This document shows positions 9,813 through 20,034 of a stretch of DNA of 64,000 nucleotides, piece by piece. The position numbers and the translations under genes were made by a program. The stretch spans positions 1 through 64,000 of the forward strand of contig NZ_JADQBY010000018.1 in NCBI RefSeq assembly GCF_016278385.1, given 5' to 3'. Origin of the DNA: Methanolobus sp. GTDB lineage: Archaea; Halobacteriota; Methanosarcinia; Methanosarcinales; Methanosarcinaceae. Under the pieces are notes generated by a model. That model searched no databases and was not told the origin of the DNA. It saw nothing but the letters and a program-made list of their open reading frames with translations. The number at the start of each line of letters is the position of its first letter. Position 1 is the first letter of the stretch.

Positions 9813-10808
<996 letters not shown>

Positions 10809-10840
10809 CTAAAGAGTGTTGTTACTCAGGTATCTATACA

Positions 10841-10849
10841 TATTTAAAA
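10841..10849 (-). promoter_or_regulatory. TATA-like box of the mer operon
   Basis: On the minus strand this reads TTTTAAATA, 45 bases before the mer ATG, leaving a short leader of about 20 bases carrying AGAGGAGG. Position and sequence fit an archaeal promoter. Confidence 0.5.
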
Positions 10850-11061
10850 CTTTGTTGGTTTGATTCTGGCAAAACATGTGAAAATGATGAGCAAATAACA
10901 AGCCAAAAGTAGATAGAGAAGTACGAATAATTAAACTAGAGTCATCATTATATAGAACTGCAGGATATTAACACTCTTCAAAAAACAGATATGTATTTAC
11001 CGTTACAGATATATCCAGTAAATGTCAGAAGAAATATTGTTCATATTTGTAGGAGGTGACA

Positions 11062-11160
11062 ATGTCAAGGGAGTTATTGAGTCATTGCCTTAAACGAGCA
11101 TTTGCCTATCTGCAAGAATATGAATATATGGGAATAGCTTGTGAACAAACTAAATTTTGA
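11062..11160 (+). CDS. Small ORF (32 aa) with strong ribosome binding site
   Basis: ATG 11062 follows AGGAGGTGAC, one of the best ribosome binding sites in the window, and runs for 32 codons to TGA, ending 14 bases before the first DUF2180 gene. The peptide is partly basic and aromatic (KRAFAYLQEYEYMG) with two Cys. I recognise no family. It may be a real small protein or a translated leader that couples to the following operon; the preceding 265 bases hold no other gene. Confidence 0.45.
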   Translation: MSRELLSHCLKRAFAYLQEYEYMGIACEQTKF

Positions 11161-11174
11161 ATAGAGTGACCATC

Positions 11175-11414
11175 ATGAAATGCTATGAATGTTCAAAAAA
11201 TGATAAAGATAGCGATACTTTGGCTATCTGTATAATTTGTGGGAGAGGTGTTTGCAAGGAACACCTTGTCAGAGAAGAAACACCCGTATGGGAAGGGGAA
11301 TACAGCATCAAACTGAAGTGCGGCATGGGAGTTGCCTGCGATTACAAAGATGTCCAGCACTGGAAGAAAATCCTCTGCATGCCTTGCCATAAGGCATTGG
11401 TGGAGAATTATTAG
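11175..11414 (+). CDS. DUF2180 family Cys-rich protein (1)
   Basis: A 79-residue B-box-like zinc-binding protein: CYECSKND, then CIICGRGVCKEHL, and CMPCHKAL near the end. I start at ATG 11175 (MKCYEC), preceded by GAGTGA, rather than the upstream TTG at 11157 that overlaps the small ORF. DUF2180 proteins occur in methanogens; function is unknown. A paralogue follows after 11 bases. Confidence 0.8.
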   Translation: MKCYECSKNDKDSDTLAICIICGRGVCKEHLVREETPVWEGEYSIKLKCGMGVACDYKDVQHWKKILCMPCHKALVENY

Positions 11415-11425
11415 GTGATATCATG

Positions 11426-11641
11426 ATGAAATGCTATGACTGTATGGAAGAAGGAAAAGACGCAGAAGCAACATGCGTCTGTATCGCTTGCGGAAAAGGG
11501 CTTTGCACTGACCACACGAAGGAACTCGAACTTCCGGTATCAGTCGGACAGCCACCACATGTCGAAAGGCTTTCAAATGGATTGCCAAGGATTCTGTGCC
11601 ACTACTGTTTTGGCCAGACCATTGAAGACGGATTTGACTGA
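11426..11641 (+). CDS. DUF2180 family Cys-rich protein (2)
   Basis: Paralogue of the preceding gene with the same pattern: CYDCMEEG, CIACGKGLCTDH and LCHYCFG. AGGTGAT precedes a double ATG (11423 and 11426); either may start it. The tandem pair opens a redox gene cluster reaching to 15692. Zinc or Fe-S binding by these cysteines and histidine is inference from their spacing. Confidence 0.8.
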   Translation: MKCYDCMEEGKDAEATCVCIACGKGLCTDHTKELELPVSVGQPPHVERLSNGLPRILCHYCFGQTIEDGFD

Positions 11642-11676
11642 TTATAATTGATTACGTAAAAATAGGAGGATAAATT

Positions 11677-12051
11677 ATGTGCGGAGAAAATAAAGGAAAA
11701 GGATGTGGCGGACATAGAGAGATTATTGATGATATGTCCAATAAATTAGGATTCACGCCACAAATACTGGAAACGCTTGGAGAACTTGAACCTGAGTTCC
11801 TACATAAATACAACATGTGCAACAACAAGATACTCAGTGACGGAGCACTACCTGCTAAAACAAAGATACTGATGGCTCTTGCAGTAGTTGCATCAAAGCA
11901 ATGTGAGCGTTGTGTTGCGTCACAAATGAAGAGTGCACTGAAGAACGGGGCAACAAAAGAAGAGATAATGGAGACAATGGATGTCATTTTCATCACATCC
12001 GGCGCTCCTGCGGTTGCTGCATGCAGAGATGCACTGAAGCTTCTCAAATAA
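11677..12051 (+). CDS. AhpD-like / carboxymuconolactone decarboxylase family protein
   Basis: The 124-residue helical protein carries CERCVASQ, the AhpD-type CxxC redox motif followed by a helix that usually ends in His (here Gln/Met side chains instead), plus a Cys-rich N-terminus ([12 protein letters not shown]). AhpD uses its CxxC as a thiol-disulfide peroxidase partner. ATAGGAGGATA precedes the ATG. Position before the cytochrome and flavoproteins suggests thiol redox exchange within this cluster, but the substrate is unknown. Confidence 0.85.
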
Positions 12052-12138
12052 AAATATTCGTTGGAGGAGCCACCTGGCTCCTTTGAACAAATCTAATCGG
12101 TTCATATTGTTCATATTATACTACTGAGAGGGGAGGAG

Positions 12139-13542
12139 ATGAAGGAGAGAGTTGTAAAGGGGAGCCTGTTTTTCATAGTAGCTGTCGTTTTAGTATCTTT
12201 GTTCAGTGGCTTTGCAGTTGCAACAGAGGCTACACAATTCGGAGAATATTCTGCTGATGGTTTTACATATGAAAGCAGATGCCGACAATGCCATGCCATC
12301 ATTTACGGGGAATGGGAAGGTACAATGCACTTCAATGCATATCTGGACCCTTTCTATCTGGAAGAAGTAAAAGTTGCAAGTGCTGACACTGAAGGGCTGG
12401 TAGACGAATTCTGCTCCCGATGCCACACCCCCATAGGCGTTGTGTCAGGCGAAATACCACCCATAGATGGCTCAGAAATGAGTGACATATCAAAGCTTGG
12501 AGTGCAATGTGATTTCTGCCATGTAGTATCTGGAAGTAACGGAACAGGCAATGCGCCATTCACAGTAACTCCGGGAGATACAAAATGGGGACCTTTCGAT
12601 GACTCAAAGTCTGCCTATCATGACTCAGAGTACCTTGAACTCTATACCCAGTCCGAATATTGTGGCATGTGCCATGAAGTTATACATCCTGTTAACGGAC
12701 TTGTCATAGACGATACTTACCCAACATGGAAAAACAGTCAGTACGCTGAGGACAACGTGATATGTCAGGATTGCCATATGACAGAAGGCATCACAGAATT
12801 CAAGGCAAACCCCGGACGTGCAGGATCAGGTGCACCCAAAAGAGAACACATTTCATCCCATGATATTGTAGGTGCAAACGCATTCATCCCTGTAATGTTC
12901 GGTGCTGAAAACGTTGCAGATATGGCCATTGAAAGACTTCAAAATGCTGCTACACTGGAGATAACTGTACCTGAGATTGCAGCCAGTGGTGAAGAGGTCA
13001 CCATCGAGGCAGCGATCACAAATTCAGGAGCAGGGCACAATATACCAACCGGTGTTTCCGAGATCAGGCAAATATGGCTTGAAGTAATGGTCACTGACAG
13101 CGAAGGTGAAGAGCTCTACAGTGCCGGAACCCTTGATACTAATGGGAACATAGAATCTGCAAAGATAATATACAATAATGTTCTGGGTGACAATAGCGGG
13201 AATGCCACAGATAGTTTCTGGCTTGCCGACAGGGTACTGGAAGACAACCGTATAGGACCAAAAGAGACAGTAATAGAAGAACACACATTCATCCTTCCCG
13301 ACGATATTGTTTATCCACTTAAAGTGGAAACAAACCTCAATTACAGATCAGCTCCTCAGTATACGATCGACCACCTGTTTGGTGAGGGAATGTATGAGGT
13401 ACCTGTGATAAGTATGAATGAAGCGTCCAATACAATATATGACCCCGCCATGCCTCCGGAAGATAGAAAGGAATCAACGCCAGGTTTTAGCATATTTGCA
13501 GCTTGTATGGCTTTTATACTAATGATGTACATATTCAAATGA
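12139..13542 (+). CDS. Exported pentahaem c-type cytochrome with PGF-CTERM-like anchor
   Basis: A 467-residue secreted protein. Signal peptide at about 1-29; five CxxCH haem sites at 48-52, 92-96, 124-128, 175-179 and 209-213; a beta-rich domain at about 285-430 with the GHNIPTG motif seen in other multihaem cytochromes; and at the end a PGF tripeptide (448-450) followed by a hydrophobic helix and a Lys, the pattern of PGF-CTERM archaeosortase substrates. It would therefore be moved across the membrane, haem-loaded and lipid-anchored outside. GGGGAGGAG precedes the ATG. Ferredoxin and flavoprotein genes follow, suggesting electron delivery to the cell surface. It is distinct from heptahaem MmcA. 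Confidence 0.92.
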   Translation: MKERVVKGSLFFIVAVVLVSLFSGFAVATEATQFGEYSADGFTYESRCRQCHAIIYGEWEGTMHFNAYLDPFYLEEVKVASADTEGLVDEFCSRCHTPIGVVSGEIPPIDGSEMSDISKLGVQCDFCHVVSGSNGTGNAPFTVTPGDTKWGPFDDSKSAYHDSEYLELYTQSEYCGMCHEVIHPVNGLVIDDTYPTWKNSQYAEDNVICQDCHMTEGITEFKANPGRAGSGAPKREHISSHDIVGANAFIPVMFGAENVADMAIERLQNAATLEITVPEIAASGEEVTIEAAITNSGAGHNIPTGVSEIRQIWLEVMVTDSEGEELYSAGTLDTNGNIESAKIIYNNVLGDNSGNATDSFWLADRVLEDNRIGPKETVIEEHTFILPDDIVYPLKVETNLNYRSAPQYTIDHLFGEGMYEVPVISMNEASNTIYDPAMPPEDRKESTPGFSIFAACMAFILMMYIFK

Positions 13543-13563
13543 AAATAATCGGAGGAACTAATA

Positions 13564-13755
13564 ATGCCACCAAAAGTAGACAAGAATAAATGTGAAGGAA
13601 TTGGCGCATGTGCAGAATCATGCCCTACTGATGTTATAGATATTGAAGCAGACGAGAACGGAAACCTCAAATCCGTAATTGCAAGGCCAGATGACTGTGT
13701 AGAATGTGGCAACTGCATTGATGCCTGTCCCACAGAATCAATAACCTTAGATTAA
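13564..13755 (+). CDS. Small ferredoxin, probably [3Fe-4S][4Fe-4S]
   Basis: A 63-residue two-cluster ferredoxin. The second motif is complete (Cys45, 48, 51, 55: CVECGNCIDACP). In the first motif Cys10, Cys16 and Cys20 are present, but the second cysteine position (13) is Ile, so this site should hold [3Fe-4S] rather than [4Fe-4S]. It lies between the cytochrome and the iron-sulfur flavoprotein and is presumably their electron carrier. Confidence 0.92.
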   Translation: MPPKVDKNKCEGIGACAESCPTDVIDIEADENGNLKSVIARPDDCVECGNCIDACPTESITLD

Positions 13756-13775
13756 AAACAAAAAGGAGTGCCATA

Positions 13776-14396
13776 ATGTCCGATGACACATGCATTAGAT
13801 TACTGGGAATCTCAGGCAGCCCCCGGAAGAAATCCACAGACTATGTTATCAATGAAGCCCTGAGATACGCACAGGAGAAATACGGTGCAGAAATAGAGTA
13901 CTTTTCCGCCAGTGGCAAGAATATGAAGTTCTGCATCCACTGCGATTACTGTGTCCGAAAAAAGGAAGGATGCATTCACAAGGATGACCTTGTGGACCTC
14001 TATGATAAAATGCTCTGGGCTGATGCATGGATAATTGGCACTCCGGTATATCAAGGTACATTGAGTGCCCAGACAAAAACAATAATGGACAGGTGTCGCG
14101 CAGTCGTTGCTCGTGACCCAAAAGCCTTTATGAACAAAGTCGGTGCCGCAGCTGCAGTTGGCGGGGACAGGATAGGCGGACAGGAGCCAGCCATACAGAA
14201 TATTTTGAACTTCTATATCATCAGTGAGATGATACCCGTTGCAGGCGGTTCTTTTGGATCGAACCTTGGTGGAACATTCTGGTCAAAGGACAAGGGTGCT
14301 GAAGGTGTTGCTGAAGATTCGGAAGGAATCAGAAGTCTTCACAGGACCGTCAACAAACTGATGAAGACTGCCACCGCAATGAAGACTCTCAAATAG
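13776..14396 (+). CDS. Iron-sulfur flavoprotein (Isf family)
   Basis: An FMN protein of the NADPH-dependent FMN reductase fold with N-terminal GISGSPRKKS phosphate-binding loop and the compact cluster motif Cys53-x2-Cys56-x2-Cys59-x6-Cys66 that defines Isf from Methanosarcina. Known Isf accepts electrons from ferredoxin and can reduce O2 or H2O2. GTPVYQGTLS provides the usual flavin-binding segment. The ferredoxin gene is 20 bases upstream. The stop is TAG. Confidence 0.9.
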   Translation: MSDDTCIRLLGISGSPRKKSTDYVINEALRYAQEKYGAEIEYFSASGKNMKFCIHCDYCVRKKEGCIHKDDLVDLYDKMLWADAWIIGTPVYQGTLSAQTKTIMDRCRAVVARDPKAFMNKVGAAAAVGGDRIGGQEPAIQNILNFYIISEMIPVAGGSFGSNLGGTFWSKDKGAEGVAEDSEGIRSLHRTVNKLMKTATAMKTLK

Positions 14397-14406
14397 AGGT
14401 GCAAAG

Positions 14407-15105
14407 TTGAAATTCGAAGAACCTGTGATCGAGATTATCAAAAGAGCATACAATGTGAAAAGTTTCAGGTTCAAAAAACCAGAGGCTTTTGATTACAAAG
14501 CCGGTCAGTACATCACAGTGACGCTTAATTCAAATGGGAAGAAGCTTAGCAAGGCGTTCACCCTTTCAAGCAGCCCTACGGAAAAAGACCATATTGAATT
14601 TACAAAGAAACTTACAGGACATGAGTATTCCAATATATTGGATGTCATTAAAGTCGGAGATAATGCACTTATAAGTGGTCCCTTCGGAAAAATGACATTT
14701 GAAGGTGAATACGAAAAAATAGCACTCCTAGGCGGTGGAATCGGGATTACTCCTATGATTAGTATCTGTAAGTATTCCACTGACATGAAGCTGAGTACAG
14801 ATATCATGTTGATATGCAGCGACAAGACAGAACAGGACATGATATTTGCGGAAGAGCTTGAAGAGATGAAAAGGCAAAACCCGAATCTTGCCGTATTCAA
14901 TACGCTCACAAGAGCTTCAGAAAACTGGACAGGATGCAGAGAACGCATATGTGACAGCCTAATCCTGAGAGAACTGCCCGATTATGCCGAGAGGGTATTC
15001 TATGTCTGCGGACCACCACCTATGGTGGATTCTATGATGGAAATGCTCCATAATATGAAAATACCTGACAGCATGATACACAAGGAATCATTGATAGGAT
15101 ATTGA
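14407..15105 (+). CDS. FNR-like FAD/NAD(P)-binding oxidoreductase
   Basis: Ferredoxin-NADP reductase superfamily, 232 residues. N-terminal FAD barrel with FTLSSSP (RxYS-type motif, Lys before it), then an NAD(P) domain with GGGIGITPM and the C-terminal CGPPPM. No ferredoxin domain is fused. The start is TTG, 7 bases after GAGGTG, and 10 bases from the Isf gene. It probably links NAD(P)H or another hydride donor to the ferredoxin/flavoprotein pair of this cluster; the acceptor is inferred from context only. Confidence 0.88.
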   Translation: MKFEEPVIEIIKRAYNVKSFRFKKPEAFDYKAGQYITVTLNSNGKKLSKAFTLSSSPTEKDHIEFTKKLTGHEYSNILDVIKVGDNALISGPFGKMTFEGEYEKIALLGGGIGITPMISICKYSTDMKLSTDIMLICSDKTEQDMIFAEELEEMKRQNPNLAVFNTLTRASENWTGCRERICDSLILRELPDYAERVFYVCGPPPMVDSMMEMLHNMKIPDSMIHKESLIGY

Positions 15106-15146
15106 AGCAAGTTTAAGGAATTAGCGGAGAGGAGGCATTAATAATC

Positions 15147-15692
15147 ATGAAGAGGATAGCATGGGGAATTACAGGGTCAGGAGACTTGATCAAAGAAACG
15201 TATGATGTAATGGTCGATATCAAGAATAAGAGCAATATTGAGATAATGGTCTTTCTGTCAAAGGAAGGTGAAACCGTTATGAAATGGTATCACATGTGGA
15301 ATGATATACAGAAGGATTTCCCTAATTTCAAGACAGAAGGTGGACCAAATTCACCATTTCTTGCAGGGCCGCTGCAGGTTGGATATTACGATGCCCTTAT
15401 TATCGCCCCTACAACATCAAACACTGTAGCCAAGATAGTATACGGGATATCTGATTCCCTTGTCGCAAATGTTGTTGCACAGACCGCAAAAGGAAGCACA
15501 CCCATCTATATCCTTCCAGTGGACAGAGAAAGAGGCACTGTGGAAACAACGTCTCCGGAAGGCCGTGTAATGGTACTGAAAATGCGTGAGGTGGATGTAA
15601 CCAATACGGAAAAACTTGCGCAGATGGAGAATATAACAGTAATCAACAGTCCTGATGCCATCTACGATATTCTTGGAATCAGTAAGGATTAG
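15147..15692 (+). CDS. afpA: Archaeoflavoprotein AfpA
   Basis: A flavodoxin-like homo-oligomeric FMN protein of the AfpA family (first studied in Archaeoglobus), related to the HFCD/DmrB flavoproteins. Recognised from the start RIAWGITGSGD, APTTSNTVAKI and the Pro-rich KGSTPIYILPVD segment; length 181 is normal. AfpA is known to accept electrons from ferredoxin. It closes the redox cluster and its TAG stop overlaps the stop of the converging DUF429 gene. Confidence 0.9.
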   Translation: MKRIAWGITGSGDLIKETYDVMVDIKNKSNIEIMVFLSKEGETVMKWYHMWNDIQKDFPNFKTEGGPNSPFLAGPLQVGYYDALIIAPTTSNTVAKIVYGISDSLVANVVAQTAKGSTPIYILPVDRERGTVETTSPEGRVMVLKMREVDVTNTEKLAQMENITVINSPDAIYDILGISKD

Positions 15693-16516
15693 AAGAATGT
15701 ATAGCCTTCCCGGAGATAGATGTCAGGCAACTTGCCAATAACATCATCCAGTATTCTGACAGACCTAAATGTGGCATAGGCTGCAATAAAACTGTCCAGG
15801 CCATCTCCATCCTTATTGTCTATTATTTTTTTCCGGATCTCGTCAGTAACGGTTATTCCTTTATGTAGCATTTCATCAAGGATATATTCCCTTGTATTCT
15901 TCTCTTTTTCCGACTTGCCCTTATAGGTGATGTATAAGTCTTCACTCTTCAGTGTTGATGCCGGACATATTTCCATAAGCCATGGTTTATCTTCCTGTGG
16001 TTCCTGAATTGGAAGTGCACATACCTTTTTAGATGTCACAAGGGGATGCACAACATCACGAATTCCGTAGTATGTCTGCTTGTATACCCAGAGATTATAG
16101 ATGCTAAATGGGGCTTTAACCTCGACATCAGTAAGACGCTTAAGTTCAGTATTCCCCCCGGCAATCTGCATTGCCCTTCGAAATTCGTCCGCAGAGTGAT
16201 ATTCATGAGGAAAATCAGATACAAAAGAATACCAGTCCTTCCCGGACATCAGTTGCTGGGGAAGACTGAAAGGGAAATCCATCCCGAAAACAGAGTTCTT
16301 GTTTGAAATTATCAGTTCTCGCAAAGCAGAAAGACAAACATCACGTCCCTTTAACTTACCCGGAACAAGGTCGTATGCCGGATAGCATTTGAGAAGGATA
16401 AGTTTTCCCCTTTCTGCAACGCCCTCACTTATCCAGATCTTGCGACCTGCATCTTTTGCACCACTGAAATCAACACCATATATCTTGCGTTTCCTTCCAG
16501 TGGCGGCAAATGTCAT
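15689..16516 (-). CDS. DUF429 family protein
   Basis: A 275-residue protein with the DUF429 start YGVDFSGAKDAG and GMDFPFSLP, consistent with an RNase H-like fold in which Asp residues sit at the ends of strands. Function unknown. It stops 4 bases inside the converging afpA and starts 13 bases downstream of the inositol-phosphate synthase gene, so it is probably cotranscribed with that. Confidence 0.82.
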   Translation of the reverse strand: MTFAATGRKRKIYGVDFSGAKDAGRKIWISEGVAERGKLILLKCYPAYDLVPGKLKGRDVCLSALRELIISNKNSVFGMDFPFSLPQQLMSGKDWYSFVSDFPHEYHSADEFRRAMQIAGGNTELKRLTDVEVKAPFSIYNLWVYKQTYYGIRDVVHPLVTSKKVCALPIQEPQEDKPWLMEICPASTLKSEDLYITYKGKSEKEKNTREYILDEMLHKGITVTDEIRKKIIDNKDGDGLDSFIAAYATFRSVRILDDVIGKLPDIYLREGYTFF

Positions 16517-16529
16517 GTATAATTCCGAT

Positions 16530-17633
16530 TCAGTTATCCCGCAGACCCCTGATGAACTCGTCTGTCATCATGTAGGCCTCATCATCTGTGAACTGCTTTG
16601 GCGGATGCTTCATGAAATAGGATGATGGAGAGTGCAGGATACCGCCTACACCTCTTTCAAGGGCAAGCTTGCAGCATCTTATGGCGTCAATGACCACTCC
16701 TGCGGAGTTAGGGGAATCCTCCACCGAGAGGCGAAGCTCTATATTCATTGGAACATCACCAAAGAGCTTTCCTTCCATTCTCAGGAAGCAGACCTTGTTA
16801 TCATTCTGCCATGGAACATAGTCGCTTGGACCAACGTGGATGTTATCATCATCCATCCTCTGACCAACTACGGATTGAACAGCTTCTGTTTTAGATTCTT
16901 TCTTTGAAGCAAGCCTGTTCCTGTTAAGCATGTTAAGGAAATCAGTGTTACCTCCGGTATTGAGCTGATAGGTCCTCTCCAGTTTCACACCGCGTTTGCG
17001 GAAGAGATCTACAAGGGTCCTGTGGGTGATTGTAGCCCCAAGCTGGGCTTTTACATCATCACCAATGATCGGAATACCTTTCTCCTCGAACTTCGCTGCC
17101 CATTCAGGGTTGCTCACGATAAAAACAGGCATGTTGTTAATGTATGCAACTCCTGCCTCAAGGGCACACTCAGCATAGAAACGGACGGCTTCTTCAGAAC
17201 CCACCGGGAGATAGTTAAGTAATATCTCTGCTCCTGAGTCCTTTAATTCTTTCACTACCTGTTCTTTATCAGCTTCTTTTTCAGTGGAAGGAATAAATCT
17301 CCTGTTATCACTGTAATTTACCATATGTTCGGAAACACCGTCAAGAATATGCCCCATTTTGACAATTACACCGGTTTTTGGAAGCTCAGGGCAGAATACT
17401 GCCGTGCAGTTGGGTGGCGCAAAAATAGCCTCAGATACATCCCTACCAACTTTCCTTTCATCAATGTCAAATGCAGCAACTACTTCAATATCAAATGGCC
17501 TGTAGCCACCAATATCCCAGTGCATAAGGCCGATAGCATCGTTTTCTTCTTTGTTTTTGTAATACTCAATGCCTTGAATAAGAGAGCTTGCACAATTGCC
17601 AATACCTGCAATTGCGATCTTGATTTTGTCCAT
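16530..17633 (-). CDS. ino1: myo-inositol-1-phosphate synthase
   Basis: Converts glucose-6-phosphate to inositol phosphate with bound NAD+, for archaeal phosphatidylinositol lipids or inositol solutes. NAD-binding AGIGNCASSLIQG lies at the N-terminus; NTGGNTDFLNM and the Lys-containing SKTEAVQS region are typical of the family. Length 367 is normal for the archaeal short form. Confidence 0.94.
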   Translation of the reverse strand: MDKIKIAIAGIGNCASSLIQGIEYYKNKEENDAIGLMHWDIGGYRPFDIEVVAAFDIDERKVGRDVSEAIFAPPNCTAVFCPELPKTGVIVKMGHILDGVSEHMVNYSDNRRFIPSTEKEADKEQVVKELKDSGAEILLNYLPVGSEEAVRFYAECALEAGVAYINNMPVFIVSNPEWAAKFEEKGIPIIGDDVKAQLGATITHRTLVDLFRKRGVKLERTYQLNTGGNTDFLNMLNRNRLASKKESKTEAVQSVVGQRMDDDNIHVGPSDYVPWQNDNKVCFLRMEGKLFGDVPMNIELRLSVEDSPNSAGVVIDAIRCCKLALERGVGGILHSPSSYFMKHPPKQFTDDEAYMMTDEFIRGLRDN

Positions 17634-17906
17634 TCAACTACCTCTATAAAAGTGATTTTTGAAAGTAAATGACATATAAAATATAACCAGATTAATGTAT
17701 TGTTACAAATAAAAAGTTTTCTAAATAGAGAGGTGTTGCCAACTTTTTTCAGAGATACTATGGCCGACAGATGAAACTAAGCTCGAAAGGTATATTAAGC
17801 CAGAATTAGATAGGATTTGATACAGTGGGTTTTGCCTTCGTTCGAGTATCGAGCATTGGCGCTTTAAGTTTAATAGTTAACATATTGCTCTAAGGGAGAT
17901 TTTGAA

Positions 17907-18395
17907 ATGAAAGATATACTACATGAGATTGCAGAAGAACTGGATCAACTAAAATCAATGGACCAGGCAATTGGTCTGGCAATAGAACTTGAAGAAGAGG
18001 GAATGGAGTATTACAGCGAAAAGGCATCTGTAATGAAGAACGAGACTGCCAGCAAACTATACGTTTTCCTTGCAGGTGAGGAAAAAAAGCATGCTGAATA
18101 CCTGAAGCAATTCAGGGAAAGCAAGCATATTCCTGAAGTAGAATTTAGTTTTCCGAAATTCAAGGCATCTTTCACAGAAGAGTTCTCCGATGAAAAACTC
18201 GAAGAGATAGGCATCCTTCTTGCAGCCCTGAGGTTCGAACACAAAAGCGAGTATTTCTATATCGAGCTTGCAGATAGAGCAGATAACGATGAGCAGCGCG
18301 TGTTCTTTGAAAAGATAGCTGCCGCGGAGAGGGGACACTACCAGATAATTGATGAATTGCTTGGTGCAGCAACTGAGTTCAGGATGCAGACATAA
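17907..18395 (+). CDS. Rubrerythrin-like diiron protein without rubredoxin domain
   Basis: Four-helix ferritin-like protein of 162 residues with two ExxH-type iron sites: LEEEGMEYY and GEEKKHAEY in the first half, RFEHKSEYFY and AAERGHYQI in the second. Rubrerythrins reduce hydrogen peroxide; here the C-terminal rubredoxin is missing. GGGAG precedes the ATG. The F420H2 oxidase gene follows after 20 bases, supporting a role in oxygen defence. Confidence 0.9.
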   Translation: MKDILHEIAEELDQLKSMDQAIGLAIELEEEGMEYYSEKASVMKNETASKLYVFLAGEEKKHAEYLKQFRESKHIPEVEFSFPKFKASFTEEFSDEKLEEIGILLAALRFEHKSEYFYIELADRADNDEQRVFFEKIAAAERGHYQIIDELLGAATEFRMQT

Positions 18396-18415
18396 GGACA
18401 GGAGAGAGATTTTAA

Positions 18416-19627
18416 ATGGATGATTACAAACCACTCGAACTGACCAAAGGAATATACTGGGTAGGCGTGGTTGACTGGAACCTGCGCGACTTCCATGGAT
18501 ACGAAACCCCAAAAGGTGGAAGTTATAACGCATACCTTGTGGTCGATGAGAAAATTGCACTTATAGACACTGTAAAAGCGCCATTTGCAGGAGAAATGCT
18601 TAAGCGTATAAGCCAGATAGTCGATCCAGCAAAAATTGACTATGTTATTTCCAACCATGTCGAAATGGACCATTCCAGTTCCATATCAACTATCATGGAC
18701 ATCGCACCCAACGCAAAGTTGTTTGCATCATCCAAAGGACAAACTGGGCTTTCCGAGTACTACAAAGAGGAAGGCTTTGACAAATGGGACCTTGAGGTTG
18801 TTAAGACAGGAGATGAACTGAGCCTTGGAAAAAAGACTTTGATGTTCATAGAGGCCACAATGCTACACTGGCCTGACAGCATGCAGACCTATGTGAAAGA
18901 AGACAGGATACTATTTTCAAATGATGCTTTCGGACAACATTTAGCAACTTCAAAGCGCTTTGATGACGAGGTTGATGATGTAATGGAAGACGCGGGCATA
19001 TATTATGCCAATATCCTGCTGCCATTCGGGTCGCAGGTACTCAAATATGTTGAAAAACTGAAAGAGCTGGAAGTCAATCCTGAGATAATAGCTCCGGCAC
19101 ATGGGATCATCTGGAGAAAGAACGTATCAAGAATAATCGAGGAATATGGAAAGTGGGCAACAGGACATTCTCTGCCCAAGCTGGTTGTCATCTATGACAC
19201 CATGTGGGGAAGCACCGAGAAAATGGCAATGGAACTCGTTGAAGGAGCAAGGGCATCGGGCGTGGAAGTGCGCCTGAGACACCTGCGCAAGAACGATTGG
19301 AGTCTGACCATGAAAGAACTGATGGATGCATCGGTTGTTGCAATTGGCTCACCCACAATGAACAATGGAATGTTCTTTACAATATCCGGTTTCCTCACTT
19401 ACATGAAAGGACTGCACCCAAAAGGTAAGAAGTACTTCCTGTTCGGTTCTTATGGATGGGGTGGCGGAGCAGTCAAAGGAATGGAAAAAGAACTGGAAAG
19501 CGGAAAATTCGAACTTGCCATGAAAAGTATGCAGGTAAAATTCAGACCTTATGAAGAAGATAAGAAAGCTTGCAGAGAGATAGGGTACAAGCTTGGTGAA
19601 ATGGCAAAAGAGAATGCAAACTCTTAA
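18416..19627 (+). CDS. fprA: F420H2 oxidase (A-type flavoprotein FprA)
   Basis: Reduces O2 to water with F420H2. Residues 1-250 are a metallo-beta-lactamase-like diiron domain with HVEMDHSSS (HxExDH) and further His ligands (TMLHWPDS, APAHG); residues about 255-403 are a flavodoxin domain with YDTMWGSTEKMA binding FMN. Length 403 is standard. It lies between rubrerythrin and an Fe-S disulfide reductase gene, making an O2/peroxide detoxification set. Confidence 0.95.
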   Translation: MDDYKPLELTKGIYWVGVVDWNLRDFHGYETPKGGSYNAYLVVDEKIALIDTVKAPFAGEMLKRISQIVDPAKIDYVISNHVEMDHSSSISTIMDIAPNAKLFASSKGQTGLSEYYKEEGFDKWDLEVVKTGDELSLGKKTLMFIEATMLHWPDSMQTYVKEDRILFSNDAFGQHLATSKRFDDEVDDVMEDAGIYYANILLPFGSQVLKYVEKLKELEVNPEIIAPAHGIIWRKNVSRIIEEYGKWATGHSLPKLVVIYDTMWGSTEKMAMELVEGARASGVEVRLRHLRKNDWSLTMKELMDASVVAIGSPTMNNGMFFTISGFLTYMKGLHPKGKKYFLFGSYGWGGGAVKGMEKELESGKFELAMKSMQVKFRPYEEDKKACREIGYKLGEMAKENANS

Positions 19628-19671
19628 ATTAATGAAAATGAATGTTCAAATGAAATAACGAGAGTGTTACA

Positions 19672-19947
19672 ATGAGATTCGAAAATGACCTGGAAGCTGA
19701 ATTCTACGAAATGTCCAAAAAAAATGCAGAAACAACCGGTTACAAGCTCAACACTGACTGGGATGTTATCACAACTGCTGTAAAAGGTATTTGCAACAAC
19801 AAGAAAGAATATGGAGAATGGTACTGCTTCTGCCAGAAGAGGACCGAAGATAAAGAGCAGGACAAAAAGATAATCTGCCCTTGTGCTGCAAGAGTAAGAG
19901 ATATTGAAATGCGCGGCGCATGCAAGTGCGGACTTTACATAAAGTAA
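19672..19947 (+). CDS. Ferredoxin:thioredoxin reductase catalytic subunit-like protein
   Basis: A 91-residue protein with CFC, CPC and CKC motifs (in WYCFCQKR, IICPCAAR and GACKCGLY) plus an upstream Cys in GICNNKKE. This is the pattern of the FTR beta subunit, whose [4Fe-4S] cluster next to a redox disulfide reduces thioredoxin-like partners with ferredoxin electrons. Archaeal members work without the plant alpha subunit. Genome context suggests thiol repair after oxygen exposure. Confidence 0.9.
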   Translation: MRFENDLEAEFYEMSKKNAETTGYKLNTDWDVITTAVKGICNNKKEYGEWYCFCQKRTEDKEQDKKIICPCAARVRDIEMRGACKCGLYIK

Positions 19948-20034
19948 ACATAAATATCCTTAATTTTAACCTTTGAAACTGGAGTTGCAAATACTCCATA
20001 ACATTCTTTTTTCCATATACAATATCCTATCCAT

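Follow-up and report, generated by a model that had tools for sequence, protein, structure and literature searches.

The question raised by this locus is whether its redox genes, which include one for an exported pentahaem cytochrome c, send electrons to the outside of the cell or remove oxidants. The window, by which we mean the whole 64,000-nucleotide stretch of Methanolobus sp. DNA analysed here, carries the features listed below, and we consider it likely that they represent the Methanolobus form of an O2/ROS-defence island of the Methanosarcinaceae with an optional surface cytochrome. The genes, domains, synteny, and gene losses are our own observations, the oxidative-stress assignment and deletion phenotypes come from the M. 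acetivorans literature, and we infer every route taken by electrons as well as what the cytochrome acts on.

10996–11023, plus strand: putative promoter/operator TTTACCGTTACAGATATATCCAGTAAAT, an imperfect inverted repeat across a TATA-like core, with predicted function
11175–11414, plus strand: D1, DUF2180, Cys-rich putative zinc protein (PF09947, 78 bits)
11423–11641, plus strand: D2, second DUF2180 protein (PF09947, 76 bits)
11677–12051, plus strand: CMD, AhpD-like thiol protein (PF02627, 69 bits; TIGR00778, 31.1 vs. cut-off 27.8)
12060–12084, plus strand: hairpin and then a short U-tract, terminator/attenuator-like, between CMD and CYT (z = -4.3 in the window)
12139–13542, plus strand: CYT, exported pentahaem cytochrome c, MA3739 orthologue (five CXXCH, signal peptide)
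13564–13755, plus strand: FD, 63-aa two-cluster ferredoxin (Fer4 matches)
13776–14396, plus strand: ISF, iron-sulfur flavoprotein Isf (PF03358, 111 bits; CX2CX2CX6C)
14407–15105, plus strand: FNR-like FAD/NAD(P)H oxidoreductase (PF00970 and PF00175; TTG start)
15147–15692, plus strand: AFP, archaeoflavoprotein AfpA (TIGR02699, 265 bits vs. cut-off 192)
17907–18395, plus strand: RBR, ferritin-like/rubrerythrin-like protein (synteny; ferritin-like family matches weak)
18416–19627, plus strand: FPR, flavodiiron protein, predicted F420H2 oxidase (synteny; NF008887, 412 bits, under the equivalog cut-off)

Extent and conservation of the cluster

The eight genes from 11175 to 15692, from the two DUF2180 genes to that of AfpA, were all named in the preliminary description and are indeed found on one strand, with intergenic spacings of 8–41 bp and the sole exception of the 87 bp between CMD and the cytochrome. 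The block had been delimited there as 11062–15692, and its limits needed correction at both ends. A 32-codon leader frame at 11062–11160 is probably not a gene, being truncated in the next nearest relative and not preserved in relatives generally, and given this lack of conservation, the gene block begins at 11175. At the other end, 11175–15692 would be an incomplete, shortened set, because RBR and FPR (17907–19627) belong to it by synteny.

The gene-order comparison across the Methanosarcinaceae that had been proposed earlier gave the same order in the family loci with flanks long enough, with the flavodiiron and rubrerythrin-like genes attached, a recurrence far beyond chance. The place of the cytochrome is constant across the family, between CMD/superoxide reductase and Isf (or the ferredoxin). 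In Methanosarcina, the RBR and FprA genes lie directly 3' of AfpA, the superoxide reductase sits between CMD and the cytochrome, and CMD and superoxide reductase accompany the cytochrome (14/14 with it, 0/6 without it). The loci of relatives carry extra genes for superoxide reductase, for rubrerythrin, or for Fe-S repair, and in some, NifS/NifU are inserted. The cytochrome is decayed in two genomes (G044/G050) and absent in others, with Isf and AfpA retained.

A similar cluster in M. acetivorans, mentioned in the preliminary description, does exist as MA4664/MA3734–3743, described as a putative oxidative-stress operon (PMC3729527), and no report of its acetate induction was found in the literature searched. 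It shares with the window the order D1, D2, CMD, cytochrome, Isf, AfpA, rubrerythrin-like protein, and FprA behind a divergent mer, and FPR is 57% identical to its flavodiiron protein. The window copy follows the order D1-D2-CMD-(SOR)-CYT-ISF-AFP behind mer with the superoxide reductase (SOR) absent, homologues of the latter being encoded elsewhere. It differs from the M. acetivorans operon also in having the ferredoxin and FNR-like genes, and in that RBR and FprA, although in the same order and strand, are split from AfpA by two opposite-strand genes (DUF429-like and MIPS). With FprA as MA3743, counting backwards makes the cytochrome MA3739, which was independently described as five-haem (PMC6703419).

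The promoter-like element is kept 5' of D1 in most of the Methanolobus aligned; as a regulon motif it was discarded, with a single genome copy even allowing up to 3 mismatches. The position between CMD and the cytochrome is occupied by a hairpin with a short U-tract in most Methanolobus checked, with differing stem sequences and z values of -0.8 to -4.1, some of them weak. When covariation was sought, the stems were not registered by simple DNA alignment of the relatives, and this hairpin is therefore taken from single-sequence folds only. An Rfam scan of 10700–20000 gave no family at gathering score.

Cytoplasmic proteins of the cluster

FPR has the flavodiiron architecture expected of an FprA F420H2 oxidase, and its top NCBIfam match is the anaerobic NO reductase flavorubredoxin (NF008887), full length over both domains and under the cut-off. 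CMD and its relatives all carry the motif CxxCxxxQ, in which the CxxC is retained and Gln stands in place of the AhpD His; the assignment of CMD as an AhpD peroxidase fails, the catalytic His three residues after CxxC being replaced throughout. In the ferredoxin, the first motif misses its second Cys (CxxIxxCxxxCP), a pattern present in the 21 relatives listed, and its clusters are thus probably [3Fe-4S]/[4Fe-4S]. Isf has the FMN fold and a Cys motif within CX2CX2CX4-7C, in the compact form CX2CX2CX6C in nearly all relatives, and the FNR-like protein lacks a 2Fe-2S domain. Their counterparts in M. thermophila, M. acetivorans, and Archaeoglobus share the compact Cys motif of Isf and the above-cut-off TIGR02699 match of AfpA, the window pair being known from sequence. 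AfpA was rejected as the dihydromethanopterin reductase DmrX (TIGR02700, 141 bits vs. 251 required); a second, longer AfpA-like frame is found elsewhere in the genome (C51).

In the DUF2180 protein D1, C3, C19xxC22, C27xxH30, and C68xxC71 are invariant and C6 nearly so, and beyond D1 and D2, there is no DUF2180 elsewhere in the genome. The structure model reached a pLDDT of 74 and its PDB comparison gave no match with E below 0.2, so we restrict our claim to a zinc-like Cys/His pattern.

The pentahaem cytochrome and its relatives

The C-terminal parts of CYT are an Ig-like domain and then a PGF-type tail. Its AlphaFold2 model (pLDDT 91) best matches the fold of the penta-haem c552 of Thermochromatium tepidum (5ZE8; Z 31.3, 336 residues, 2.7 Å), which, like the ExtKL/PHC family, also has five CXXCH and a C-terminal Ig-like domain; CYT differs from these in its 20% identity, archaeal C-terminal tail, and gene neighbours, and it scored 59.5 bits against the ExtKL equivalog NF040886, whose cut-off of 250 was not reached. 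The MccSep structures 9WT8–9WTC also match in the profile comparison. The tail, STPGF followed by a hydrophobic helix, gave no TIGR04126 match, its relatives falling below the cut-off and an ANME-1 member above it, and ArtA is encoded in the genome (270 bits). CYT is exported and probably held at the cell surface via this tail.

Four non-motif histidines (H64, H161, H241, and H300) are invariant or nearly invariant for five haems, and judging from the alignment with c554, whose match spans the first three haems, haem 2 is most likely to be left unpaired. It is a possibility, although a doubtful one, that CYT, with one of its haem sites open, is a surface-anchored reductase acting on O2, superoxide, peroxide, or NO and forms an outer defence layer common to methanogens, ANME-1, and some bacteria.

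Outside the family, two ANME-1 loci carry rubrerythrin-like, Isf, AfpA, encapsulin-type ferritin, cytochrome, superoxide reductase, ferritin, and flavodiiron genes, and in a deep archaeon, the cytochrome gene is followed by a flavodiiron gene. Among 27 cytochrome-bearing Spirochaete genomes, the cytochrome adjoins cytochrome bd in one clade of 8, most members of which also have Fur, flavodiiron, superoxide reductase, rubrerythrin, and Ogg genes nearby, and the other 19 have almost none of these defence genes; the survey is thus true of one clade only and was discarded as proof of a general link between cytochrome and defence. Rubrerythrin adjoins the cytochrome in three loci (L075, L081, and L087). 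With 7 occurrences, it is the most frequent Pfam among the 144 ORFs that neighbour the cytochrome in bacteria, and it is missing from the top 25 of a remote-homologue control. Counted by locus, the bacterial association was not significant (8/22 loci vs. 2/17 controls, p = 0.14).

Proposed oxidant defence and the alternatives

In the defence reading, the flavodiiron protein would turn O2 into water in the cytoplasm, where RBR, the CxxC AhpD-like protein, and Isf would clear peroxides and residual O2 with electrons delivered via the ferredoxin, the FNR-like reductase, and AfpA. CYT would be an optional outer layer, fed from the membrane pool; outside the membrane, it would most likely reduce an oxidant such as O2, superoxide, or peroxide. 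Oxidant removal, one of the two functions originally suggested, is supported by what is published on MA4664/MA3734–3743 and by the genes in synteny, which encode flavodiiron protein, superoxide reductase, and rubrerythrin; it counts against it that the redox regulator MsvR showed no binding to those M. acetivorans promoters that were tested (PMC3729527). The absence of superoxide reductase from the window cluster and the non-universal bacterial association are likewise points against it.

The other suggested function was extracellular electron transfer, with electrons of ferredoxin or NAD(P)H going through Isf, the FNR-like protein, and AfpA to the surface cytochrome and from there to minerals or humics, and we regard it as unlikely. 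The cytochrome is exported, has five haems, and is fold kin of ExtKL, proposed for this role in Geobacter (PMC11976967), and the MA3739 transcript rises 4.1-fold with AQDS, is higher in DIET cells, and increases by 80% when mmcA is deleted. Nevertheless, deletion of MA3739 left growth on Fe(0) unchanged (PMC10989991), as well as AQDS reduction, according to PMC8546582, which cites the work of PMC6703419. The path itself lacks support too, since no membrane-crossing partner protein is encoded in the cluster and the hairpin stands between CMD and the cytochrome, and the cytochrome is lost in genomes where Isf and AfpA persist. Moreover, a separate gene for an MmcA-like multihaem cytochrome adjoins an RnfC-like gene elsewhere in this genome; MmcA (MA0658) is, like CYT, an exported methanogen multihaem cytochrome, but it is heptahaem, Rnf-linked, and related to octahaem tetrathionate reductase, and extracellular electron transfer requires MmcA and not MA3739. 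Being compatible with an electron-transfer role too, the 4.1-fold rise counts against the defence reading. The papers found treat MA3739 as an electron-transfer cytochrome, and the same gene range is called an oxidative-stress operon elsewhere; uniting both accounts would explain the missing deletion phenotype in the AQDS and Fe(0) tests. If true, the defence reading would show how strict anaerobes may handle oxidants outside the membrane.

It is quite improbable that the stress is nitrosative instead of oxidative, with the flavodiiron protein and a c554-like cytochrome working on NO or hydroxylamine. The NO reductase match of FPR, below its cut-off, and the resemblance of CYT to c554, which acts on NO, speak for this, and the genes for superoxide reductase, rubrerythrin, ferritin, and Ogg found in synteny indicate O2/ROS instead, as does the description of methanogen FprA as an O2-reducing F420H2 oxidase (reference 26 in PMC4338226). 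Finally, a mixed neighbourhood, in which an operon for redox and Fe-S maintenance in the cytoplasm (Isf, AfpA, ferredoxin, and FNR-like protein) lies next to an unrelated, separately transcribed cytochrome gene, would agree with the hairpin and U-tract, the variable gene content, the dispensable cytochrome, and the NifS/NifU insertions of some relatives; we consider it very unlikely, given that the cytochrome keeps its position over the family and retains its defence-gene neighbours in ANME-1 and in one Spirochaete clade.

Gene block and its order across the family

All eight genes of the preliminary description were found on the + strand at 11175-15692, while the start that it had proposed, 11062, belongs to a 32-codon frame that is not conserved in relatives. 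The window genome is a 2.88 Mb Methanolobus, and the closest relatives compared are Methanolobus species. The features discussed are as follows:

10996-11023, 28-bp element upstream of the block
11175-15692, + strand, genes of two DUF2180 proteins, CxxC AhpD-like protein, cytochrome, ferredoxin, Isf, FNR-like reductase and AfpA
12060-12084, hairpin 3' of the stop codon of the AhpD-like gene
12139-13542, + strand, exported pentahaem cytochrome c
17907-18395, rubrerythrin-like protein
18416-19627, flavodiiron protein FprA

The upstream element is conserved, spans a TATA-like core and occurs once in the genome; it is inverted-repeat-like and a candidate operator for the cluster. Intergenic spacing in the block is 8-41 bp, except for the 87 bp that separate the cytochrome from the AhpD-like gene; there, the window and other Methanolobus have a hairpin with a short U-tract behind it, strong to weak depending on the species, as a possible terminator or attenuator ahead of the cytochrome gene. 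The hairpin sequence varies at the equivalent position among Methanolobus species.

The block is real: clusters of this type are already known, and here one is found in a further species. In loci of the named genomes and further Methanosarcinaceae genomes the order recurs, and it extends to the rubrerythrin-like and flavodiiron genes: divergent mer, DUF2180, DUF2180, AhpD-like protein, cytochrome, (ferredoxin), Isf, (FNR), AfpA, rubrerythrin-like, flavodiiron. The last two lie directly 3' of AfpA in Methanosarcina and are separated from it by two opposite-strand genes in Methanolobus. Some lineages carry extra genes. Methanosarcina, among others, has superoxide reductase (SOR), confirmed by TIGR00332, inserted 3' of the AhpD-like gene and 5' of the cytochrome, and Methanococcoides, among others, has a classical rubrerythrin separating FNR from AfpA. 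Further lineage-specific additions are a ferredoxin:thioredoxin-reductase-like gene 3' of FprA and, in some MAGs, TusA-DsrE-NifS-NifU/TrxB genes. In the latter, TusA-, DsrE-, NifS- and NifU/thioredoxin-reductase-like fusion genes occupy the cytochrome/ferredoxin interval (L045:11425-14659), which suggests Fe-S repair.

AfpA is present in 110/111 family genomes, flavodiiron homologues in 102/111 and the cytochrome in 75/111, two of the latter having just C-terminal remnants. The flavodiiron gene of one Methanosarcina (L125:6919-7515) is in fragments with several stops, and no flavodiiron match was found in locus L124.

The pentahaem cytochrome and its dispensability

Every intact family member has five CXXCH motifs, and the AlphaFold2 model (pLDDT 91) has a near-full-length fold match to one solved protein, the T. 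tepidum penta-haem c552 (Z 31.3, 336 residues, 2.7 A, 20% identity), which has been grouped with ExtKL and cable-bacterium pentahaem cytochromes, the latter being listed as possible catalysts that have an open haem (PMC11976967). Because only four non-motif histidines, H64, H161, H241 and H300, are invariant or nearly so in a 60-sequence alignment, with H64 aligning with the His after haem 1 in c554 and H300 lying within an AGHxxPxG loop that carries selenocysteine in MccSep, the alignment suggests that one haem may lack a distal His. Archaeal members carry a PGF-like motif and a hydrophobic helix at the C terminus, whereas bacterial ones do not, and the window genome encodes an ArtA archaeosortase; we only infer surface anchoring, since the window tail scores under the PGF-CTERM model cut-off.

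In two Methanolobus genomes (G044 and G050), the cytochrome is reduced to about 100 C-terminal residues with no haem motifs, while both DUF2180 genes, the AhpD-like gene, ferredoxin, Isf, FNR, AfpA, rubrerythrin-like and flavodiiron genes are kept; in other genomes it is missing altogether. The flavoproteins do not need the cytochrome, and a strict relay from Isf/AfpA to it is disfavoured because the cluster survives its decay or loss. The haem-less remnants lie at L120:11184-11396 and L121:10973-11272.

Oxidant defence or extracellular respiration

The preliminary description had offered extracellular electron transfer or oxidant removal as the function of the cluster. In M. acetivorans, MA4664/MA3734-3743 has been described as a putative oxidative-stress protein operon, with MA3743 an FpaA homologue (PMC3729527), and numbering backward from FprA (MA3743) at locus L111, taken as that of this species, gives MA3742 for the rubrerythrin-like protein, MA3741 for AfpA, MA3740 for Isf and MA3739 for the cytochrome, the last being independently described as a five-haem cytochrome and 4.1-fold up with AQDS (PMC6703419). 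Its deletion affected neither AQDS reduction, as reported in PMC8546582, nor growth on Fe(0) (PMC10989991), which leaves extracellular respiration unsupported; oxidant removal is supported by that operon description and by synteny with SOR, flavodiiron and rubrerythrin genes.

In Methanosarcina, the cytochrome, AhpD-like and SOR genes occur together in 14/14 loci and are jointly missing in 6/6 (p = 2.6e-5, uncorrected for relatedness), and in ANME-1 and the archaeon of L056, the cytochrome adjoins flavodiiron, SOR or ferritin genes. Rubrerythrin is the commonest family among its bacterial neighbours (7/144 ORFs), and cytochrome bd, AhpC, flavodiiron, Fur and Ogg also recur; all six were missing from the top neighbour list of a remote-homologue control. 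The excess of defence genes per bacterial locus was not significant (p = 0.14), and a wider Spirochaete survey found the full defence neighbourhood in 8/27 genomes, apparently one clade, and almost none of it in the remaining 19. For archaea the link with oxidant defence is strong; for bacteria it is clade-specific.

Spirochaete loci L077, L083, L154, L159 and L161 carry rubrerythrin, ferritin-like, SOR, cytochrome bd, Fur and flavodiiron genes beside the cytochrome, with Ogg in most and flavodiiron not detected in L154.

Accompanying small proteins

The AhpD-like protein retains CxxC and has Gln at the position of the AhpD catalytic His. The first ferredoxin motif is without its second Cys in all relatives listed, and a [3Fe-4S] cluster would be expected. 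The DUF2180 proteins have an invariant Cys/His pattern of the zinc-site type. Outside the family, in several genomes read, DUF2180 is flanked by a conserved protein of some 500 aa, which we take to resemble DUF2193, and an aquaporin-like gene, possibly as a three-gene unit. This setting, in which the aquaporin-like product is a membrane protein, is seen in other methanogens at L131, L134 (5825-8289), L141 and L143.
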